The notes below the pieces were generated by a model. It was not told where the DNA came from. It searched no databases and saw only the letters and a program-made list of their open reading frames with translations. DNA of 64,000 nt, taken from assembly GCA_005772895.1 (NCBI GenBank), contig SXIH01000024.1:26428-90427 (forward strand). Direction: 5' to 3'. Of this stretch, positions 49,206 to 58,172 are shown piece after piece. The DNA is from Bacteroidota bacterium (GTDB lineage: Bacteria > Bacteroidota > Bacteroidia > 2-12-FULL-35-15). The translations under genes and the position numbers were made by a program. Positions within the stretch are counted from its first letter, which is position 1. Every line of letters starts with the position of its first letter.

Positions 49206-52200
49206 TTATTTCACTAATGTTACTGTCCCAACATATTTATTTTCTTCACCATTTGTCATTGTTACTTTTATTTTATAAACATAAACTAGCGGTTCAACCA
49301 GTCTGCTTTTGTAGATTCCATTCCAGCCTACATTTTTGTCGTTAGATTGAAATATTTCATCTCCCCAACGATTAAAAATTAACATTTGAACCGATTCAAT
49401 GTCATCGCCTTTTACTATAAACGCATCATTCAATCCATCGTTGTTTGGTGTAAATGCATTTGGGATAAACACTGAACTTTCGTCACTTATAGAAACTAGC
49501 ACACTATCAGAATTCACACAACCATATCTATCAGTTATAGTCAAATAAAAATATTGCGATTGAGTAATAGTAAATGTTGGATCATTACAATTATTGCAAC
49601 TTAAAACAGTAGATGGTGTCCATAAAAAAGTACCAGCTCCGCTACCATTTAATTGTCCTGATTCTCCTAGTAATAATGTGAAATCCGTACCAGCATCTAC
49701 ATAAGGTAATGGATTTACGTAAACCGTAATACTATCAGAAGCTGTTCCGCACATATTTGATGTTTGAACAAAATACAATGTGCTGGATATTGGAGTTACA
49801 AATATTGTTGAGGAAGTGTATCCATTATTCCAAACTAAAGAACCAATACTACTTGTTGCACTTAGAGTTGCCGTATCACCTGCACAGATAGTTACATCAG
49901 CACTGCTAGTTAATGTTGGAGGACTTACGACTTCAATATCAAAACTTCCGGTATCGCTCACGCAATATCCATTTACTATAACTAATGAATATGTTCCGCT
50001 GTTGCTTGTTGTTATTGGAGAAATACTTGGTGAAACTAAACTGGAAGTAAATCCTCCTGGTCCTGTCCAGTAATAAGTGTAACCTACTAAATTTGTTGCT
50101 AAAAGATTTAAAGTATTTCCAACACATAAGCTATCACTCACACTTGTTAATGGTGAAGCAATAGGTGGAATAATAGAAATTGTAATTGTGTCTGCAAGAC
50201 TTGTACATCCGTTTGTATCCGTTACTTCAACTATTAATGTTGTTGCAGTTAATGCAGAACTTATTGAATAAGAATATCCAGAAGTCAAAAAATTATGTTC
50301 GTCATCATACCAGTTAACAATTAAACTTGAATCAGTTGTAGCAACAAAATTTAATGGAGTTGTTGCACAAACAGCAGTATCAGAAATTGGATTTAGAATT
50401 GGAGCAGATAACACAATTAAATTTGTTGTATCCGAATAAGCAACACATCCAATTGAATCGGTGTAAGTGTAATAATATGTTCCTGCTTGTGAAACATAAT
50501 TACTTGTTTCTATACTTCCATCATTCCATAAATACGAGCCTATAAGCGTATCCGTTAAAAGTGCTATTGAATCGTATTGACAAATTGTAAAACTACTGCT
50601 AGAAAAATTTTGCAAAGATGGATCGTTAACTAAAACAGTAATGCTATCTGAAAGACTTGTGCACATTCCGTTGTAAGCTATTACCCAATATGTGCCAGCT
50701 AAAGATGGAGTAATTGGATACACAGATAAATTTGTAGAATCAAAAGGTGTAAGTCCTGGTCCGTTCCAAGTATAAATTATTCCTACTTGAGGATTGTCAA
50801 CTTCTAATTGTAAGGTATCACCAGCACATAAATGATTTGTACCTAAAATAGTTGGTCTTTGAGAACCATTAAAAATAAATACATCAACAGGAACAAGAAC
50901 ACTTGGACAAGTTCCAGTAAAATTGGAAATATAAAACGTGCTATCATTTTGTCCCATGGTTATTCCCAAAGAATTTCCAGTAGAAATTAAAGTACCAGAA
51001 AACAAATCATCGTACCAAGATATTGTTCCAGTTCCTGAAGCATTGAGTGTTAAAGAAGTTCCAGGACAAACAGTTGTGTCACTTGCAGTTGGTGGATCAG
51101 TTGGAGGATAAGAATAAATTGTGATGCTATCACTGCTTAAACATCCTTCCATGTTCGTTGCTTGTAAAAAATAAGTTCCAGGTCCGGTTGTTGTATACAC
51201 TTGACCTAATTCCATTGAAGGGAACCAAGTGTAATCGGTGTAACCATTTGTTCCTAATAATACAACTGTGTCTTGCGGACAAATTGTATCATTTCCCCAA
51301 TAGATAATATCAACAGGAGTTCCTGATCCGCTTGTGATAGTAATGTTTGCAACAGTTGTGATGCCACATGAATTAACACTTACAGAATACGTTCCAGGAG
51401 AAGTAACTGTTTGGGTCAATGCACTTCCACTAAATGGAGTTGCCCAATTTATTAATGAGCTTTCATTTGTTTGCAAACTAATGATTACTGAACCCATAGC
51501 ACAAATACTAGTTCCGGGTGCAGCATCTAAGTAAGGAGTGCTGTATTCTTTTACTTCAACCATTTCTGAAACAAGTGCGCAACCCGTTGAAGAAATAAAT
51601 GTGTAATAATAAATTCCAGGAGTGCTTACCCAAATATCTTGAGTTGTTGAAATTGCTATCCCAGTGGGTCCATACCAAACATAACTGCTCCCTCCAACTT
51701 CAGCACTAAGTAAAACAGAATCGAAAGGACAAATAGTTCCGTTTAATGGTGTCATTGTTACCAGTGGCGCAGGCATTGATGCCAAATTAAATTGAGTAGA
51801 TGCATAACTTGTACAACCCAAAACAGTATCAATTGTCATTGAATTTAAAAAATATGTTCCTAAAAGATTAACAAGAGCCGTATCGTTTGTTGGAGAATTA
51901 ACTTGTAAAACTCCTGGTCCAGTCCAAGAATAATTATCGCCACCACTAGCGGTTAATATTACTGTATCGCCAGGACAGAAATAATTAGCACCACTAATTA
52001 GAGGGTTGTTTGGAGGAGCTTCATGAACATCTAAATAAAAATTTCGAGAAACAGAACCGAACACAGCTCCAGATATAGGATCTAAAATAGTTGCTGTAGC
52101 TGTACAATTTCCACTATATAGAGCTTGAAAGTTTTGTACATGAGATCCAAAAGTTGTTGGGAAAGATAAGTATGGAAAAAAATTATATCCACCCACAATA

Positions 52201-54446
52201 CTCCAGCTTACAAAAGTGTTAAGTGGAGTTGGTAATCCAGCTGCAAATAATGCTGGGTCAACTAATTGCATTTCAAATAAATCAAGTTTGCAAACAGTAA
52301 CTGTATCGGTTGCATTAAAAACACTATTAGTAAAAACGATTGCTGGAGTATATGTTGGAAGGGTGCATCCACCTGAGCCCGTTGTCCAAATTGAAAGTTC
52401 AACACAATTATAATTGTTACATAATCCACCAGGACTAGTTGATATAAGTGAATATACGCCAGCAGTAGATGCGTATATTGTATCGCTGGTGCTTGTTCCA
52501 CCGCCAGGAAGTGTCCACAGAAATGAATACCCTGCAGGAATGTTAGAAGCAACAAATGTTGCAGTATCGCCCAATAGAATTGTTGCTTTATTTAAACATG
52601 ATCCATATGGAATTGCAGGCATCATCAATGCATTGTATGCCGTTATTAATGGTACTGGAGGAGTTGCATAAATTTGAACATAAAACGAGTCAACAAATTT
52701 TCTGCATTCATCAACATAACCATAACTAATGTATTGCCACCCAGATGTTAAAAAAACTGCTGTATCAAGCGTTGATCCATTAGACCAATTGTATTCCCAG
52801 TCCGGTGCTTGTAAACTATCTTTTGTTGTGGGAGTTGCTATCATCATGTTAACTTTGTCGCATCCCGAAATGGTGTCGCCCATTGGATATCTGGAAGGCA
52901 TGAGTGTATCTAAAGAACATGTTCCACTAATTCTTTGAAAATAATCGTATAAGGGAGAATTTGTATTTACTGGTCTAGAAATTAAAATGTCTTTATTTCC
53001 CCAACCTTTTTGTGTGATGAAACTTCCGTATAATCCGTTGCCGCATATTACTGAGCCGAAATTAGAGTTGCTCGTGCTTAAATTATTTACGTGACTAACA
53101 AAATTAAAACCGTTAGGAGTATTAAAATTTTTAGTGTAGCTACCAGAAAAAACGGGTTGATTTGTAAAAAAGATACTTAGTGATGTTGGATAATCATCTC
53201 CAATTCCGCCATATTGTTTCTCCCAAACTCTATTTAATAAACTGTCATATTTTATTAAATAAACATCTCTGAATCCAACACTATTAAAAATTCCGTTTCC
53301 ATGAATGTTTGAAAAAGAAGTAAGTGAACATTTGAAATACCCAGTAGTGAAAATGTTGTTTTGTTCATCTATAGTTATTCCTCTTGATGACAATGCATTT
53401 TCACTTCCTTCACTGGTTCCTGCTAAAAAATTTCCGTAAGAAGTTTGAGCTTTTATTGCGAATGATTTATAAGGAAATGAGTTTGTAACATAATTATTAG
53501 GAGTTCCAACATAAACTAATGTTCCTTGAAAATCTCCAGTTAACCAAATGTTAGTTCCTTCAACTTTCATATCATACATCATAAATTGAGAAGAGATTAA
53601 TCTTCTGAACCAAATTTCATTTCCAGTACTATCAATTTTCATAACAAGTCCTGCATTGAAAGCATTATTATTATAGGTTCCTGTAAAAGTAAGGGTGTCA
53701 GAAAATTGTCCACAAACAAATATATTTGCCAATGCATCCAATTCAACTTTTAAAATTCTGTCATCATAATTTGCAGCACCTTGTTTTGCCCAAATAACAG
53801 TTCCAATAGAATTTGTTTTAAAAATAAGTGCATCATAAGAAGGAAGTCCTCCGCTTGATGGCATAGATAAAGGATAGTTTACAGAAGTAAATGTATATCC
53901 TCCAAAACTGGAAGTTCCTTTAAATTCTCCTACTGCAGTTATATTTCCACTTGCATCAACGGCTATGTCTGTGGTTAAGTCGGTGTCAGCTCCTCCGTAT
54001 CCTTTTGCCCAAATAAAATTTCCGCTGTTGTCGAGTTTTGCGATAAATATATCTTGCGATCCGCTCACAGATGTTAATGTAGTTGCTCCAAAAGGTGATA
54101 TTCCTCTGAAAACGCCAGTAATAAATATTTCACCGGCAGCATTAACAGTAATTCCAGTAGCCTTTTCATCTTGAATTCCACCGGCATTTACCACCCATAA
54201 ATAAGTTCCTAGAGAATCTTGCTTGGCAACAAATATATCGCTCATTCCTGATGATGGAATAATAATATTATCGAAACGTGCTGCCTGACTAAAATATCCT
54301 GTTGAATAAACATTCCCATATTGGTCGTGTGTTATTGCTAGTGCTTCATCATTTGCATTTCCTCCAGCACCTTGAAGCCAATTTTGTTGAGAAAATGAAT
54401 TTAATACAACTGAGTAAAGCGTGAAAAGTAGGATGTATTTTTTCAT
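49206..54446 (-). CDS. Very large secreted adhesin (1746 aa), propeller-like front, Ig-like repeats, type B tail
   Basis: Signal peptide (ILLFTLYSVVLNSFSQ). Residues about 20-460 consist of SBBP/NHL-like repeats (DQYGNVYSTGYFSQ, NAAGEIFITGVFRG, DASGNITAVGEFKG, DEQNNIFTTGYFKC), suggesting a beta-propeller. About 560-1650 are roughly a dozen Ig-like modules with the pattern IC.GDT..L.A....Y.W..G....T.....GTYY. The end is the type B gliding-motility tail (IPNAFTPNNDGLNDAF, IFNRWGDEIFQS). It should be exported by the type IX system and displayed or released. A 795-base non-coding stretch lies upstream. Confidence 0.9.
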   Translation of the reverse strand: MKKYILLFTLYSVVLNSFSQQNWLQGAGGNANDEALAITHDQYGNVYSTGYFSQAARFDNIIIPSSGMSDIFVAKQDSLGTYLWVVNAGGIQDEKATGITVNAAGEIFITGVFRGISPFGATTLTSVSGSQDIFIAKLDNSGNFIWAKGYGGADTDLTTDIAVDASGNITAVGEFKGTSSFGGYTFTSVNYPLSMPSSGGLPSYDALIFKTNSIGTVIWAKQGAANYDDRILKVELDALANIFVCGQFSDTLTFTGTYNNNAFNAGLVMKIDSTGNEIWFRRLISSQFMMYDMKVEGTNIWLTGDFQGTLVYVGTPNNYVTNSFPYKSFAIKAQTSYGNFLAGTSEGSENALSSRGITIDEQNNIFTTGYFKCSLTSFSNIHGNGIFNSVGFRDVYLIKYDSLLNRVWEKQYGGIGDDYPTSLSIFFTNQPVFSGSYTKNFNTPNGFNFVSHVNNLSTSNSNFGSVICGNGLYGSFITQKGWGNKDILISRPVNTNSPLYDYFQRISGTCSLDTLMPSRYPMGDTISGCDKVNMMIATPTTKDSLQAPDWEYNWSNGSTLDTAVFLTSGWQYISYGYVDECRKFVDSFYVQIYATPPVPLITAYNALMMPAIPYGSCLNKATILLGDTATFVASNIPAGYSFLWTLPGGGTSTSDTIYASTAGVYSLISTSPGGLCNNYNCVELSIWTTGSGGCTLPTYTPAIVFTNSVFNATDTVTVCKLDLFEMQLVDPALFAAGLPTPLNTFVSWSIVGGYNFFPYLSFPTTFGSHVQNFQALYSGNCTATATILDPISGAVFGSVSRNFYLDVHEAPPNNPLISGANYFCPGDTVILTASGGDNYSWTGPGVLQVNSPTNDTALVNLLGTYFLNSMTIDTVLGCTSYASTQFNLASMPAPLVTMTPLNGTICPFDSVLLSAEVGGSSYVWYGPTGIAISTTQDIWVSTPGIYYYTFISSTGCALVSEMVEVKEYSTPYLDAAPGTSICAMGSVIISLQTNESSLINWATPFSGSALTQTVTSPGTYSVSVNSCGITTVANITITSGSGTPVDIIYWGNDTICPQDTVVLLGTNGYTDYTWFPSMELGQVYTTTGPGTYFLQATNMEGCLSSDSITIYSYPPTDPPTASDTTVCPGTSLTLNASGTGTISWYDDLFSGTLISTGNSLGITMGQNDSTFYISNFTGTCPSVLVPVDVFIFNGSQRPTILGTNHLCAGDTLQLEVDNPQVGIIYTWNGPGLTPFDSTNLSVYPITPSLAGTYWVIAYNGMCTSLSDSITVLVNDPSLQNFSSSSFTICQYDSIALLTDTLIGSYLWNDGSIETSNYVSQAGTYYYTYTDSIGCVAYSDTTNLIVLSAPILNPISDTAVCATTPLNFVATTDSSLIVNWYDDEHNFLTSGYSYSISSALTATTLIVEVTDTNGCTSLADTITISIIPPIASPLTSVSDSLCVGNTLNLLATNLVGYTYYWTGPGGFTSSLVSPSISPITTSNSGTYSLVIVNGYCVSDTGSFDIEVVSPPTLTSSADVTICAGDTATLSATSSIGSLVWNNGYTSSTIFVTPISSTLYFVQTSNMCGTASDSITVYVNPLPYVDAGTDFTLLLGESGQLNGSGAGTFLWTPSTVLSCNNCNDPTFTITQSQYFYLTITDRYGCVNSDSVLVSISDESSVFIPNAFTPNNDGLNDAFIVKGDDIESVQMLIFNRWGDEIFQSNDKNVGWNGIYKSRLVEPLVYVYKIKVTMTNGEENKYVGTVTLVK

Positions 54447-55241
54447 AAGAGTAGTTTTTAAAAAACCAGGGATGATTATTTATGCTGGTAAGCTTTTACA
54501 AATGTCATTTGATTTATTTTTAATTGAAAAATTAAATAATATAGATTGTACTAGTTCAAACAATATCTTCGTATAGTATGCTAATAAATTAGGGCTAATA
54601 CCTATTTTATTCTTACTCGTTCAGTTTTGTTATTTTAATTTTATGGGGAATGTTTTTTTGTTTGATACGTGAATTTAATTTTTATTGTCCGATTTTTATT
54701 GCTTAACTATTTAGTGGTTGAATTTGATTTGTAAACGGCAACATTTCAAACGTAATTGTGAGCTTATTATTATTTGTCTTTTTAAATTTGCCCTAGCTTA
54801 GCTTGTTGCCGAACAACATCCCCATGTTTCATGCAACAAGCCGAGCCAAAGCATTTAACTGATACAAACCTACATCATAAAAACGCCCTTCATTTAGCAT
54901 ATTGAGCCAATTATATACATGTCAAAAATTAGCATATTTGCTTGTAATAATTGATATAATTGAATTTATTGGTTTATAATTATACATATGAAGCATTTTT
55001 TCAACTTTTATTATATTTATACATGTCTAAATCACTCATTTTTTAGTAAATAATTGCAAATACACTATGATATCTAATAAATAATAAGTAATTTAGTTAC
55101 ATGTTTGCTGTGTAAATTCTATATAAGTGCTATAAATAAAGATAATAATGGATTGTCGTGTGGAACGATTTCAAAATTGCTGCTTAATTAAGTGCCAAAT
55201 AACAGGCTAAAGGAATAAAACAAAATATCTCAAAAATATAC
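54447..55241. other. 795-bp AT-rich non-coding region with structured elements
   Basis: No ORF on either strand has coding character. It holds a hairpin at 54801-54841 and four ACATGT palindromes between 54917 and 55245. It must contain the promoters of the divergent adhesin (minus) and 516-residue protein (plus); I see no exact TAnnTTTG box close to either start. Confidence 0.6.
54801..54841. promoter_or_regulatory. Long intergenic hairpin with ACAT-CCCC-ATGT apex
   Basis: GCTTGTTGC (54801-54809) pairs perfectly with GCAACAAGC (54833-54841); inside, AACAT-CCCC-ATGTT forms a second stem. The 16-mer AACAACATCCCCATGT recurs at 57147-57162. No T tract on either side, so it is not a terminator. 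Confidence 0.55.
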
Positions 55242-56792
55242 ATGTCAAACACTCCATCAGACCATTTGTTTAAATTGATAAAATCACTCAATAAATCCGA
55301 GAAAAGGTATTTTAGTTTATATGCTTCTCGTCATACACTGGGAGAAAAAAACAATTATGCAATATTGTTTGAGGCAATTGATAAACAAAAGGAGTATGAT
55401 GAAGATGCACTTATAAAACAATTTAAAAAAGAAGCATTCGTCAATAAATTTTCGATTACAAAAGCTCGTTTGTATGATACCGTATTAAATAGTTTAACCG
55501 CTTTCCATTCTGCCAGCTCCATTGATGCTCAATTAAAACGTGATTTACATTGTGCTGAAATTTTGTATAAAAAAACTTTGTATGAGCAATGTGCAAAAAT
55601 GCTTTCTAGTACAAAAAAAGTGGCAACTCGTTATGAGAGACACTCTTCCTTATTAGAGATTAGTTTGTGGGAGAAAAAATTAATGGAAACCGAAAATTAT
55701 GCGGGTAAAAAAGATGCCGATATTTTGTTGATGTTAGAAGCGGATGATTTAATTGGTGAAAAAATTAAAAACTTTAACGATTATTGGAATATTAAAAGTC
55801 GCTTTTTCTCCATATTAAATAAGCAAGGAAAAGTTCGGAACGATGAGGAATTATTGAAGTTTAAAAAAATTATTGATAATACTTTGTTAAAAGGTGAAGA
55901 CAAAGCTTTGTCTACAGAAACGCGTTATCTTTTTTATCATATTTATAGTGCTTATTATTTTGGAATTGGTGATTATAAAAAGAGTCACGAAAATTTAGTA
56001 AAAAACGTTCAGTTAATTGAAGACCATCCGGATATTTTTAAAGAAGAACCGAATATTTATTTTTCTGTTCTGACAAATGAAATTTATGTTGGAAGTCAGT
56101 TAAAGAAATACAAAGAAGTATATGCAAGTTTAAAAAAGCTACGCTCTTCACTGGTACAATTTGAAAATGGCAAGAATGAAGATTTGGAAGTGAAACTTTT
56201 TTCGAGCGCAACAAGTATTGAGTTGTCGATTTACATGCAAACCGGGGAATTTGAAAAAGGATTGGAGTTGGCTCCGAAAATAGAGGAGAAGTTGGCAAAA
56301 TATCCGGGAAAGTTTACCAAGTTGCGTGAAGCGTATTTCTATTTTAACATGTCGGCCATGTTTTTTGGTGCAGAAAAATATACCCAGGCACTAAAGTGGA
56401 TTAATAAATTGTTGAACAGCCCGAACTTTGAAGAGAGCGAAAATATTTATTGTTTTGCTCAAATTATGAGTTTGATTATTCATATAGAGTTAAAACATGA
56501 TGATTTTGTTCCACATGCGTTTAAGAGTGTTCATCGTTATTTGAGTTCACGTAACAGGGTTTATAAATTTGAAACGGTGATAATGGAGTTTATCGGTAAA
56601 ATTTTAAAGACTACTAAAAGAGAAGAGCAAAATAAATATTATAAAGAATTAAAAAATGCATTGGTTGATTTAAAAGCAGATTCGTTTGAACGGGCAGCAT
56701 TTGAATATTTTGATTTTATCTCTTGGACGGAAAGTAAAGTGCAAAGAGTGCCATTCAGAGTGATTGTAGAAGAAACTGCGGGAATGAAGTAG
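55242..56792 (+). CDS. Helical-repeat (TPR-like) protein of unknown function
   Basis: 516 residues, soluble, almost entirely alpha-helical. The N-terminal 90 residues have a recurring phylum pattern (LIKSLNKSEKRYFSLYAS..., KARLYDTVLNSL). The rest consists of TPR-like helix pairs (RYLFYHIYSAYYFGIGDYKK, SIELSIYMQTGEFEKGLELA). No enzyme motif. Such proteins may be scaffolds or sensors. The gene stands alone between a long non-coding stretch and a hairpin. Confidence 0.8.
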   Translation: MSNTPSDHLFKLIKSLNKSEKRYFSLYASRHTLGEKNNYAILFEAIDKQKEYDEDALIKQFKKEAFVNKFSITKARLYDTVLNSLTAFHSASSIDAQLKRDLHCAEILYKKTLYEQCAKMLSSTKKVATRYERHSSLLEISLWEKKLMETENYAGKKDADILLMLEADDLIGEKIKNFNDYWNIKSRFFSILNKQGKVRNDEELLKFKKIIDNTLLKGEDKALSTETRYLFYHIYSAYYFGIGDYKKSHENLVKNVQLIEDHPDIFKEEPNIYFSVLTNEIYVGSQLKKYKEVYASLKKLRSSLVQFENGKNEDLEVKLFSSATSIELSIYMQTGEFEKGLELAPKIEEKLAKYPGKFTKLREAYFYFNMSAMFFGAEKYTQALKWINKLLNSPNFEESENIYCFAQIMSLIIHIELKHDDFVPHAFKSVHRYLSSRNRVYKFETVIMEFIGKILKTTKREEQNKYYKELKNALVDLKADSFERAAFEYFDFISWTESKVQRVPFRVIVEETAGMK

Positions 56793-56801
56793 AATTCTTA
56801 T

Positions 56802-56842
56802 AAAAAGTGAGAGCGGCACCTGCTCTCAAAGGTACCGCTCTC
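56802..56842 (-). terminator. Rho-independent terminator of the small membrane-protein gene
   Basis: GAGAGCGG...CCGCTCTC, an 8-bp stem extended by ACC/GGT after one mismatch. On the minus strand it is followed by ACTTTTT; on the plus strand there is no T tract. So it serves the minus-strand gene at 56881-57051. Confidence 0.75.
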
Positions 56843-56880
56843 GGGGGTCTAAACTAAACTAAACAAACAAAAATGAAATA

Positions 56881-57051
56881 CTAGAATGCGTTATAGATGC
56901 TAAAGAATATAATTGCTACTGTAGCGATCGCTAACAAAATGGTTACGGTTCCGATACCCTCTTGGTGGTAATTATGACCGTGTCGGGTTGATGTTTTTCT
57001 GTTCATGGCTTTTGAAATTAAGTTGTTAAATTCGAGTAGTTCTGTTGCCAT
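56881..57051 (-). CDS. Small single-helix membrane protein (56 aa), unannotated mini-gene
   Basis: Missed by the ORF track because of its length. ATG at 57051, TAG at 56881. It reads MATELLEFNNLISKAMNRKT, a polar basic stretch with three histidines (TRHGHNYHQEG), then a hydrophobic helix (TVTILLAIATVAIIFFSIY). The first half suggests a cytoplasmic tail, the second a membrane anchor. A terminator of the right strand follows 40 bases after the stop, and a structured element lies upstream, so the locus looks like a complete transcription unit. Function unknown. Confidence 0.6.
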   Translation of the reverse strand: MATELLEFNNLISKAMNRKTSTRHGHNYHQEGIGTVTILLAIATVAIIFFSIYNAF

Positions 57052-57118
57052 CTTATTAAAATTTTAAATTTCTTATTTATATGTTTTTCCGCTTTTCGGA
57101 TTATTTTCTTTTAAGTAA

Positions 57119-57193
57119 GGTGTGGTCGGTTTGCCAATTAATAAAACAACATCCCCATGTGCCAATTAATTTTGTTACAAACCTCCCTACACC
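57119..57193. promoter_or_regulatory. Structured intergenic element with direct and inverted repeats
   Basis: Outer arms GGTGT..GGTTTG (57119) and CAAACC..ACACC (to 57193) are inverted repeats; inside are two copies of GCCAATTAAT and the ACAT-CCCC-ATGT dyad. It contains the 16-mer shared with 54811-54826. It lies 68 bases upstream of the mini-gene at 57051. Confidence 0.5.
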
Positions 57194-57422
57194 TGCTCTT
57201 GTTTATTTGATCAATAATTGAATGAACTTCTGACCAATATTACGACACAAAAAGGCATAAGTATACCCATAATGAGTAAATGGCAGGTTCACTTATTTAA
57301 TGGTAGGAATTAGAATTTAAGTGGTGGAACCGGATTTAGGTGTTTTTGTGATAAATGGGTGTAATTCAATGAAATTAGGTGTTTTAGGGATTGTGAGCGA
57401 TTTGGTACGAGGGGATAAACGG

Positions 57423-58172
57423 CTATAAATGGGAGAGTTTTTCCAGAAAATCGGTCTTATTCCTTCTTGAAACTTCCACCTGTGAATTGTCGCTCATTAC
57501 AACGTATCCGCCTTCTCCTTTTATGTACTTTTTTACGTGCTCCAGGTTGATTAAATGGGAGCGGTGGACGCGGAAAAAGTTGTCATCGGCAAACATTTGC
57601 TCATATTCCCCTAAAGTACGGGAGGCAATTATTTTTTTGCCATTGGTAAGGATAAAAAAGGTGTAATTTCCATCTGAATCGCAGCGTACGATATCAGAAA
57701 GGTTAATAAATATCAAACCATCACCATCAGGAATGCCTACTTTTTTAAGTTTGTTTTCGGGTCTGGCGTTAGATAAGAGTGTTTTAAATTGTTTGTCTAG
57801 TGTGTTTTTTTGTCCTGATTGATTTTCAAAACGTTTTACTGCAGTAATTAGCTCCTCCGGGTCAATAGGTTTTAAAATATAATCTACAGCGCTGAATTTT
57901 ATGGCTTTAATTGCATAATGATCATAGGCTGTTGTGAAAATAATATTGAAATTGATTTTTTTGAATTTCTCTAATAAATCAAAGGCATTTCCATTGGGCA
58001 TTTCAATGTCTAAAAAAACCAAATCAGGTTCTTTGTTGGTAATTGCTTCAAATGCACTTAACATTGAATCTACTTTTGCAATTACTTCAATTTGTTTGCA
58101 ATTTTTTTCAATCATTTTAGATAATGATTCGCGTGCGCCTAATTCATCATCTACTATTATAGCCTTTATCAT
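57423..58172 (-). CDS. LytTR-family response regulator
   Basis: 249 residues. The receiver domain (about 1-120) has the acidic pair VDDE, the phosphorylated aspartate in LVFLDIEMPNG and lysine in ILKPID. The LytTR DNA-binding domain (about 150-249) includes VRCDSDGNYTFFILTNGKK and FFRVHRSHLINLEHVKKY. It works with the kinase encoded 52 bases upstream. LytTR regulators bind direct repeats; targets are not evident. Last gene of the thiL-kinase-regulator set. Confidence 0.93.
   Translation of the reverse strand: MIKAIIVDDELGARESLSKMIEKNCKQIEVIAKVDSMLSAFEAITNKEPDLVFLDIEMPNGNAFDLLEKFKKINFNIIFTTAYDHYAIKAIKFSAVDYILKPIDPEELITAVKRFENQSGQKNTLDKQFKTLLSNARPENKLKKVGIPDGDGLIFINLSDIVRCDSDGNYTFFILTNGKKIIASRTLGEYEQMFADDNFFRVHRSHLINLEHVKKYIKGEGGYVVMSDNSQVEVSRRNKTDFLEKLSHL

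Follow-up and report, generated by a model that had tools for sequence, protein, structure and literature searches.

Within the 64,000-nucleotide stretch of Bacteroidota DNA analyzed here (the window), two hairpin-forming elements were found, each preceding a gene on the minus strand. Hairpin A (54790-54852, minus strand) lies upstream of the gene for a 1746-amino-acid (aa) T9SS adhesin (49206-54446, minus strand), which matches Pfam CHU_C and Ig_7 and NCBIfam TIGR04131 and has a type IX sorting domain (CHU_C/Bac_Flav_CTERM). Hairpin B (57118-57194, with an extended outer pairing at 57113-57199, minus strand) lies upstream of the gene for a 56-aa membrane protein (56881-57051, minus strand) that has a single hydrophobic stretch, no Pfam or NCBIfam match, and a homologue in 29 of the 36 genomes of the genus. 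An earlier note on this DNA had named an adhesin and a small membrane protein as the next minus-strand genes, and these are the genes found. On the far side of hairpin B is a LytTR response regulator gene (57423-58172, minus strand; PF00072 and PF04397), which is almost always the upstream neighbor of this hairpin. The space between the two elements holds a plus-strand gene of 516 aa (55242-56792) that is BT2802-like (207 bits against NF058569, short of its curated cut-off of 550) and that in several species has CGTCCCC or CATCCC about 34 nt ahead of its start. It converges with the 56-aa gene, and the inverted repeat GAGAGCGGCACC/GGTACCGCTCTC between them (56809-56842) is probably a shared terminator.

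The two hairpins share the 16-mer AACAACATCCCCATGT, exact copies of which were located at 54812-54827 and 57145-57160 in a scan of the window; the earlier note had both copies, with coordinates (54811 and 57147) that were off by 1 and 2. Searching the whole genome for the 16-mer had been set beforehand as a refutation test. The copies proved few, each upstream of genes, and no third exact copy exists elsewhere in the 3.54-Mb genome. Of 36 genomes from the same genus, 24 contain the exact 16-mer; all 23 genomes from other families lack it. A covariance model of hairpin B and its orthologues (type B) found members in 29 of the 36 genus genomes at E-values up to 1, the weakest of which, with E above 0.01, may be chance matches; the same model matched in 1 of 196 genera of the class. 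Diverged members in five genomes (G003, G004, G014, G021 and G034) retain GGGGATGTTG, and in G026 a hairpin with GUGGGGAUGUC stands ahead of a diverged small gene. When public genomes and viral contigs were scanned for the 16-mer, most matches were scattered over unrelated taxa, as chance would produce at this length; exact matches in L213, L214 and L215 lack the stems and were dismissed as chance. None of the 4227 models of Rfam release 15 matched the window at the gathering threshold, and an E-value search of this region returned microRNA matches only, at chance level (E 2-4).

On the minus strand, the apex reads ACAU-GGGG-AUGUUGUU and forms the tip of a long hairpin. In B the invariant apex ACAUGGGGAUGUUGUU (57145-57160) consists of a GGGG tetraloop with CAU/AUG closing, and the apex of A (54812-54827) is identical to it over all 16 nt. 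Both 16-mers had been placed at the apex of a larger inverted repeat, as they indeed are, within 54790-54852 and 57118-57194. The two GCCAATTAAT copies ascribed to one of the elements also exist (57133 and 57161); they are direct repeats whose ATTAAT parts make up the upper stem of B. As minus-strand RNA, hairpin A folds at -33.0 kcal/mol (z -6.5) and hairpin B at -28.0 kcal/mol (z -3.8), with no shuffled sequence as good in either case. The GGGG has an unpaired probability of 0.99-1.0 in all hairpin types. Hairpins A and B lack a downstream U-run on the minus strand, as judged by direct reading of the sequence for an intrinsic terminator or attenuator.

Orthologues of hairpin B occupy the same place in most species, and at the place syntenic to hairpin A relatives carry one of three hairpin types. 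The stems of type A (GGCUUGUUGC/GCAACAAGCU), type C (CCACCUGCUG/CAGCAGGUGG) and type D (CACCUGCCGGA/UCCGGCAGGUG) are mutually unrelated, type D having CACCTGCCGGA/TCCGGCAGGTG as a third, unrelated stem. Type D stems also hold the words CCTGCCGG/CCGGCAGG, which recur in a CCTGCCGGCAGGCAGGCAGG repeat in the B leader of G035 (at about 10050-10100 of L206, minus strand), so that a dispersed repeat may be the origin of the D stem. Type B was found without exception upstream of the 56-aa membrane-protein gene, at 38-125 nt from annotated full starts, and nearly always behind the LytTR regulator gene; in G024 the hairpin and the small membrane-protein gene are duplicated as a unit. Types A, C and D lie upstream of type IX-secreted adhesin genes at the same locus, and some type C copies sit directly behind the stop codon of the previous adhesin gene, between tandem adhesin genes.

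Covariation analysis of the flanks, proposed in the earlier note with lack of covariation as a refuting outcome, revealed strong base-pair covariation in B and in A/C, with stems that vary around a fixed apex as that note had described. In the B alignment (A3), which was fitted to its own model and includes two antisense rows, 95.5% of cells were paired, 9 of 20 pairs showed double-sided changes, and none of 500 shuffles was as good. The middle helix of A and C showed double-sided changes in 7 of 9 pairs. In the A and C alignment, built without structure, 99.2% of cells in the chosen helices pair, and this fell to 27-59% when partners were slid by 1-3 columns. Type D was omitted from these pair counts because MAFFT failed to register it with A and C. 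In their predicted folds, long hairpins with changing, always complementary stems thus carry an invariant CAU-GGGG-AUGUUG in which the four Gs are unpaired. The elements combine a conserved place and orientation upstream of genes with compensatory changes, as is typical of structured cis-regulatory RNA leaders. Judged from sequence, type B is the leader of the 56-aa gene, and T9SS adhesin genes have types A, C and D as their leaders.

The strand of the RNA follows from several observations. G-U pairs next to the apex are conserved, and these would be A-C mismatches on the opposite strand. Together with the fixed orientation and the operon-internal copies, they identify the minus strand as the RNA; better folding also favors that strand, the plus-strand folds of A and B being the weaker ones. 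A short upstream open reading frame in the apex (AUG GGG AUG UUG, encoding MGML) was considered and rejected, as its silent positions are invariant and G021 loses the first AUG while keeping GGGGATGTTG.

Promoter-like and regulator-binding sequences were found near both hairpins. A -7-like box of the presumed B transcript, TAATATTG (57235-57242, minus strand), is conserved in most species about 71 nt upstream of the upper stem. Upstream of hairpin A, the sequence contains a -7-like box, TATAATTG, within GACATGTATATAATTG (54908-54915, minus strand), and the A, C and D leaders of relatives have a similar GACATGTATA...TTG box. Among 8-mers, TATATTTG shows the strongest enrichment upstream of genes in this genus, and it agrees with the -7 box of flavobacteria, reported as TAnnTTTG (PMC9723704). 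Upstream of promoter B lie three LytTR-type direct repeats, ACCACTTAA/ACCATTAAA/GCCATTTAC (57276-57325, minus strand), spaced 21 and 20 bp in the layout ACCACTTAA-12-ACCATTAAA-11-GCCATTTAC. The interval from hairpin A to the adhesin gene holds two more, GCCGTTTAC/ACCACTAAA (54710-54739, minus strand), at a spacing of 21 bp, an arrangement repeated in L199, L206 and L210. The direct-repeat form of LytTR sites has been described (PMC6193735); near both elements, and outside the 16-mer, the sequence has two ACCACTTAA-like repeats with a spacing of about 21 bp, upstream of a promoter. LytTR-type pairs occur in 12 of 20 B leaders against 0.01 expected; in the window they occur solely at the two elements, and a further 400 kb of this genome contained none. 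Since such pairs stand at both elements and nowhere else that was searched, LytTR probably controls the locus through the direct repeats and not through the 16-mer. As a separate observation, CGTA[AT]CA[AC]GC occurs downstream of hairpin A in L199, L206, L210 and L211, about 80 nt past the LytTR repeats and just ahead of AATCATCCC; it is perhaps a second adhesin promoter with a transcript starting near the motif.

The earlier note had read the shared apex as a conserved recognition loop or protein site and had suggested the nearby LytTR regulator as the protein that binds it. A fixed apex on varying stems at envelope genes was upheld; binding of the 16-mer by LytTR was not, given that the LytTR-type repeats (57325-57276 and 54739-54710) do not fall within the hairpins. 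The same finding weighs on the idea that the elements act as DNA, whether as a LytTR operator, a recombination site or a REP-like mobile repeat. Inverted repeats, a LytTR gene next door and a stem type that has CCTGCCGG/CCGGCAGG, like dispersed repeats, would suit such an element. However, copies are few per genome and fixed in place and orientation, no transposase is nearby, and stem covariation and conserved G-U pairs favor RNA. We consider the DNA-level explanation largely refuted and give it a very small chance.

An invariant apex on covarying stems is also the usual look of a protein-bound hairpin. An RNA-binding protein might read CAU-GGGG-AUGUUG in cis and control translation or decay, and an apex-recognizing protein of this kind is the main rival to a base-pairing model. 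We take the apex UGGGGAUGU to resemble the GGA-loop hairpins bound by CsrA, which would count in favor of such a leader. However, a PF02599 gene was found in 0 of the 36 genus genomes, with 3 of 14 control genomes positive, and CsrA/RsmA was rejected as the ligand. Under this explanation the AATC[AG]TCCC motif described below would be a separate site, and the complementarity of the apex to that motif and to the start regions of unrelated genes is left unexplained. We hold a protein-binding leader to be rather unlikely.

The base-pairing model draws on a linear motif, AATC[AG]TCCC, that is complementary to the hairpin loop over 6-7 bp. As RNA, AAUC(A/G)UCCC(C/U) is complementary to GGGGAUG and precedes the start codons of a set of exported-protein genes by about 32 nt; this set includes the adhesins behind the hairpins. 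The window adhesin has such a site, AATCATCCCT (54468-54477, minus strand), 31 nt upstream of its start codon, with a predicted apex duplex of -11.2 kcal/mol. We treat AATCATCCC as the putative loop-pairing site of the adhesin leader. In 22 of 25 cases AATC[AG]TCCC fell at -28 to -38 of a start codon. Of its 22 copies in this genome, 7 are intergenic; all 7 are in the sense orientation and precede start codons, mostly those of exported proteins with signal peptides. In addition, the reverse complement of the apex occurs at the start codons of unrelated exported-protein genes, and several genes have CATCCCC ahead of ATG, a pattern that matched 31 times where its reversed form matched 5 times. 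Predicted apex duplexes at matching or near-matching sites range from -10 to -14.5 kcal/mol. As in small RNAs (sRNAs), an accessible seed is thus complementary to sites near target starts, over 6-7 bp in general and over 15 of 16 nt in the start region of a 217-aa exported protein, where the predicted duplex reaches -25.9 kcal/mol. At the -32 sites a U-U mismatch comes after the 6-7 bp match, and pairing would require the AUG side of the apex to open. As the apex is invariant, covariation is uninformative on its pairing with targets.

In four hairpin genomes, 15 of 80 copies of the motif stood at -25 to -40 of starts; in five genomes with no detected apex, none of 75 did (Fisher 3e-5, uncorrected for species relatedness). 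These five include G026 with its diverged hairpin GUGGGGAUGUC and G013, whose locus may be cut by a contig end, and G020 has lost the kinase beside its thiL gene. The apex-negative genomes are scattered across the ThiL tree. General 5' regions show no enrichment of CATCCC, with 2 of 228 and 3 of 226 genes, and the motif therefore marks a subset of genes. These results bear on whether the -32 motif serves the genus generally, as a translation or promoter signal that is complementary to the apex by coincidence. Its very constant distance to the start codon and the presence of CATCCCC directly before ATG in several unrelated genes would fit such a signal. The lack of general 5' enrichment and the absence of start-associated copies from the five genomes that lack the exact apex do not, and some copies are not promoters, since they are located between genes of an operon. 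We find a general signal most improbable. 16S rRNA, which presumably holds a similar GGGGAUGA, was likewise rejected as the partner of the motif, since 16S is universal and the motif is not.

Two further gene families were noted. A TonB-like 105-aa gene (L326, L327, L329 and L331; genomes G032, G009, G018 and G008) has an ECF-type promoter, GTAACTTT...CGTC, and in four species has at its start codon AACAACATCCCCATGAAA, the full complement of the hairpin apex. A conserved ...CLSxEQLQxY... gene (364 aa in L323; also L354, L355 and L279) carries [AT]C[AG]TCCCC beside its start codon in several species and is a possible further target.

Most hairpin-bearing adhesin leaders, including that of the window adhesin, have CATCCC or CGTCCC before the start. 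This arrangement is compatible with a switch that works in cis only, in which the GGGG loop would pair with the CAUCCC of its own mRNA as a long-range pseudoknot, or would sense a ligand, with no action in trans. Genes that lack a hairpin nevertheless have the motif at the same distance, and the B leader itself is a hairpin without a loop-complementary motif, so that we judge the cis-only switch improbable. The motif is also absent behind some other hairpins, namely at the 430-aa gene of L190 and the 957-aa gene of L191.

With its loop fixed on free stems and matching a site ahead of many exported-protein genes, the family probably provides switches for the cell surface, as far as sequence comparison can tell. 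The overall proposal is that both elements belong to one genus-restricted family of structured minus-strand RNA leaders, that LytTR switches it, and that its G-tetraloop pairs, both in cis and in trans, with C-rich sites of surface-protein mRNAs; as a joint claim, we regard this as evenly balanced between right and wrong. In the proposed sequence of events, the neighboring LytTR two-component system would switch on the hairpin transcripts, and the exposed G-tetraloop would pair with C-rich sites close to where ribosomes load, in cis within the adhesin mRNA and in trans within other surface-protein mRNAs. Loop pairing would then adjust translation or stability, and the B transcript would be a dual-function RNA that acts as riboregulator and encodes the small membrane protein. 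We put forward tentatively, at a little under even confidence, that an invariant G-tetraloop "plug" on unrelated stems, under LytTR control, pairs in cis and trans with a C-rich "socket" that precedes the starts of type IX-secreted and other exported proteins by about 32 nt. Our guess is that the effect is repression rather than activation, since structure close to start sites usually reduces initiation in Bacteroidota (PMC6847099).

Compared with the earlier note, the minus-strand leader orientation, the complementary motif at exported-protein genes and the operon-internal copies are new. Post-transcriptional control in Bacteroidota is, to our knowledge, poorly known, with few rules for mRNA finding without Shine-Dalgarno pairing. 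Here sequence alone defines a new RNA family, points to its probable transcriptional controller and supplies candidate targets; a base-pairing code for surface-protein control thereby becomes directly testable with a few mutations. If true, the proposal would describe a loop-and-socket surface regulon in a phylum that lacks Shine-Dalgarno sequences, and it offers a possible role for a conserved 56-aa membrane protein of no known family.

Among known systems, compared by description and with no relatedness claimed, the family works most like Rfp18 and LhrC (PMC9723704, PMC4132741). Rfp18 of Flavobacterium psychrophilum is a strongly structured RNA from the same phylum, one stem-loop of which is predicted to pair with several secreted-protease mRNAs and an adhesin mRNA, one predicted target site being intergenic within an operon (PMC9723704). 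Unlike the elements described here, Rfp18 is an independent sRNA and not the leader of a protein gene, and no family with a shared apex on changing stems was reported for it. The LhrC sRNAs of Listeria monocytogenes are multicopy, two-component-controlled RNAs with short redundant motifs that repress a surface adhesin (PMC4132741). They belong to Bacillota, share no homology and pair with mRNA through CU-rich motifs, whereas here a G-rich loop would meet a C-rich target that precedes the start by about 32 nt, and the phylum lacks Shine-Dalgarno sites. Dual-function RNAs such as VcdRP of Vibrio cholerae (PMC8672173) and SgrS combine a regulatory RNA and a small protein on one transcript, as we infer for the B transcript. 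Finally, LytTR-regulated promoters have ACCACTTAA-12 bp-ACCGCTTAT-type direct repeats upstream of the promoter, beside a LytTR gene (PMC6193735); the putative site at hairpin B shares this layout and differs in having three repeats, 21 and 20 bp apart, together with a Bacteroidota -7 box.
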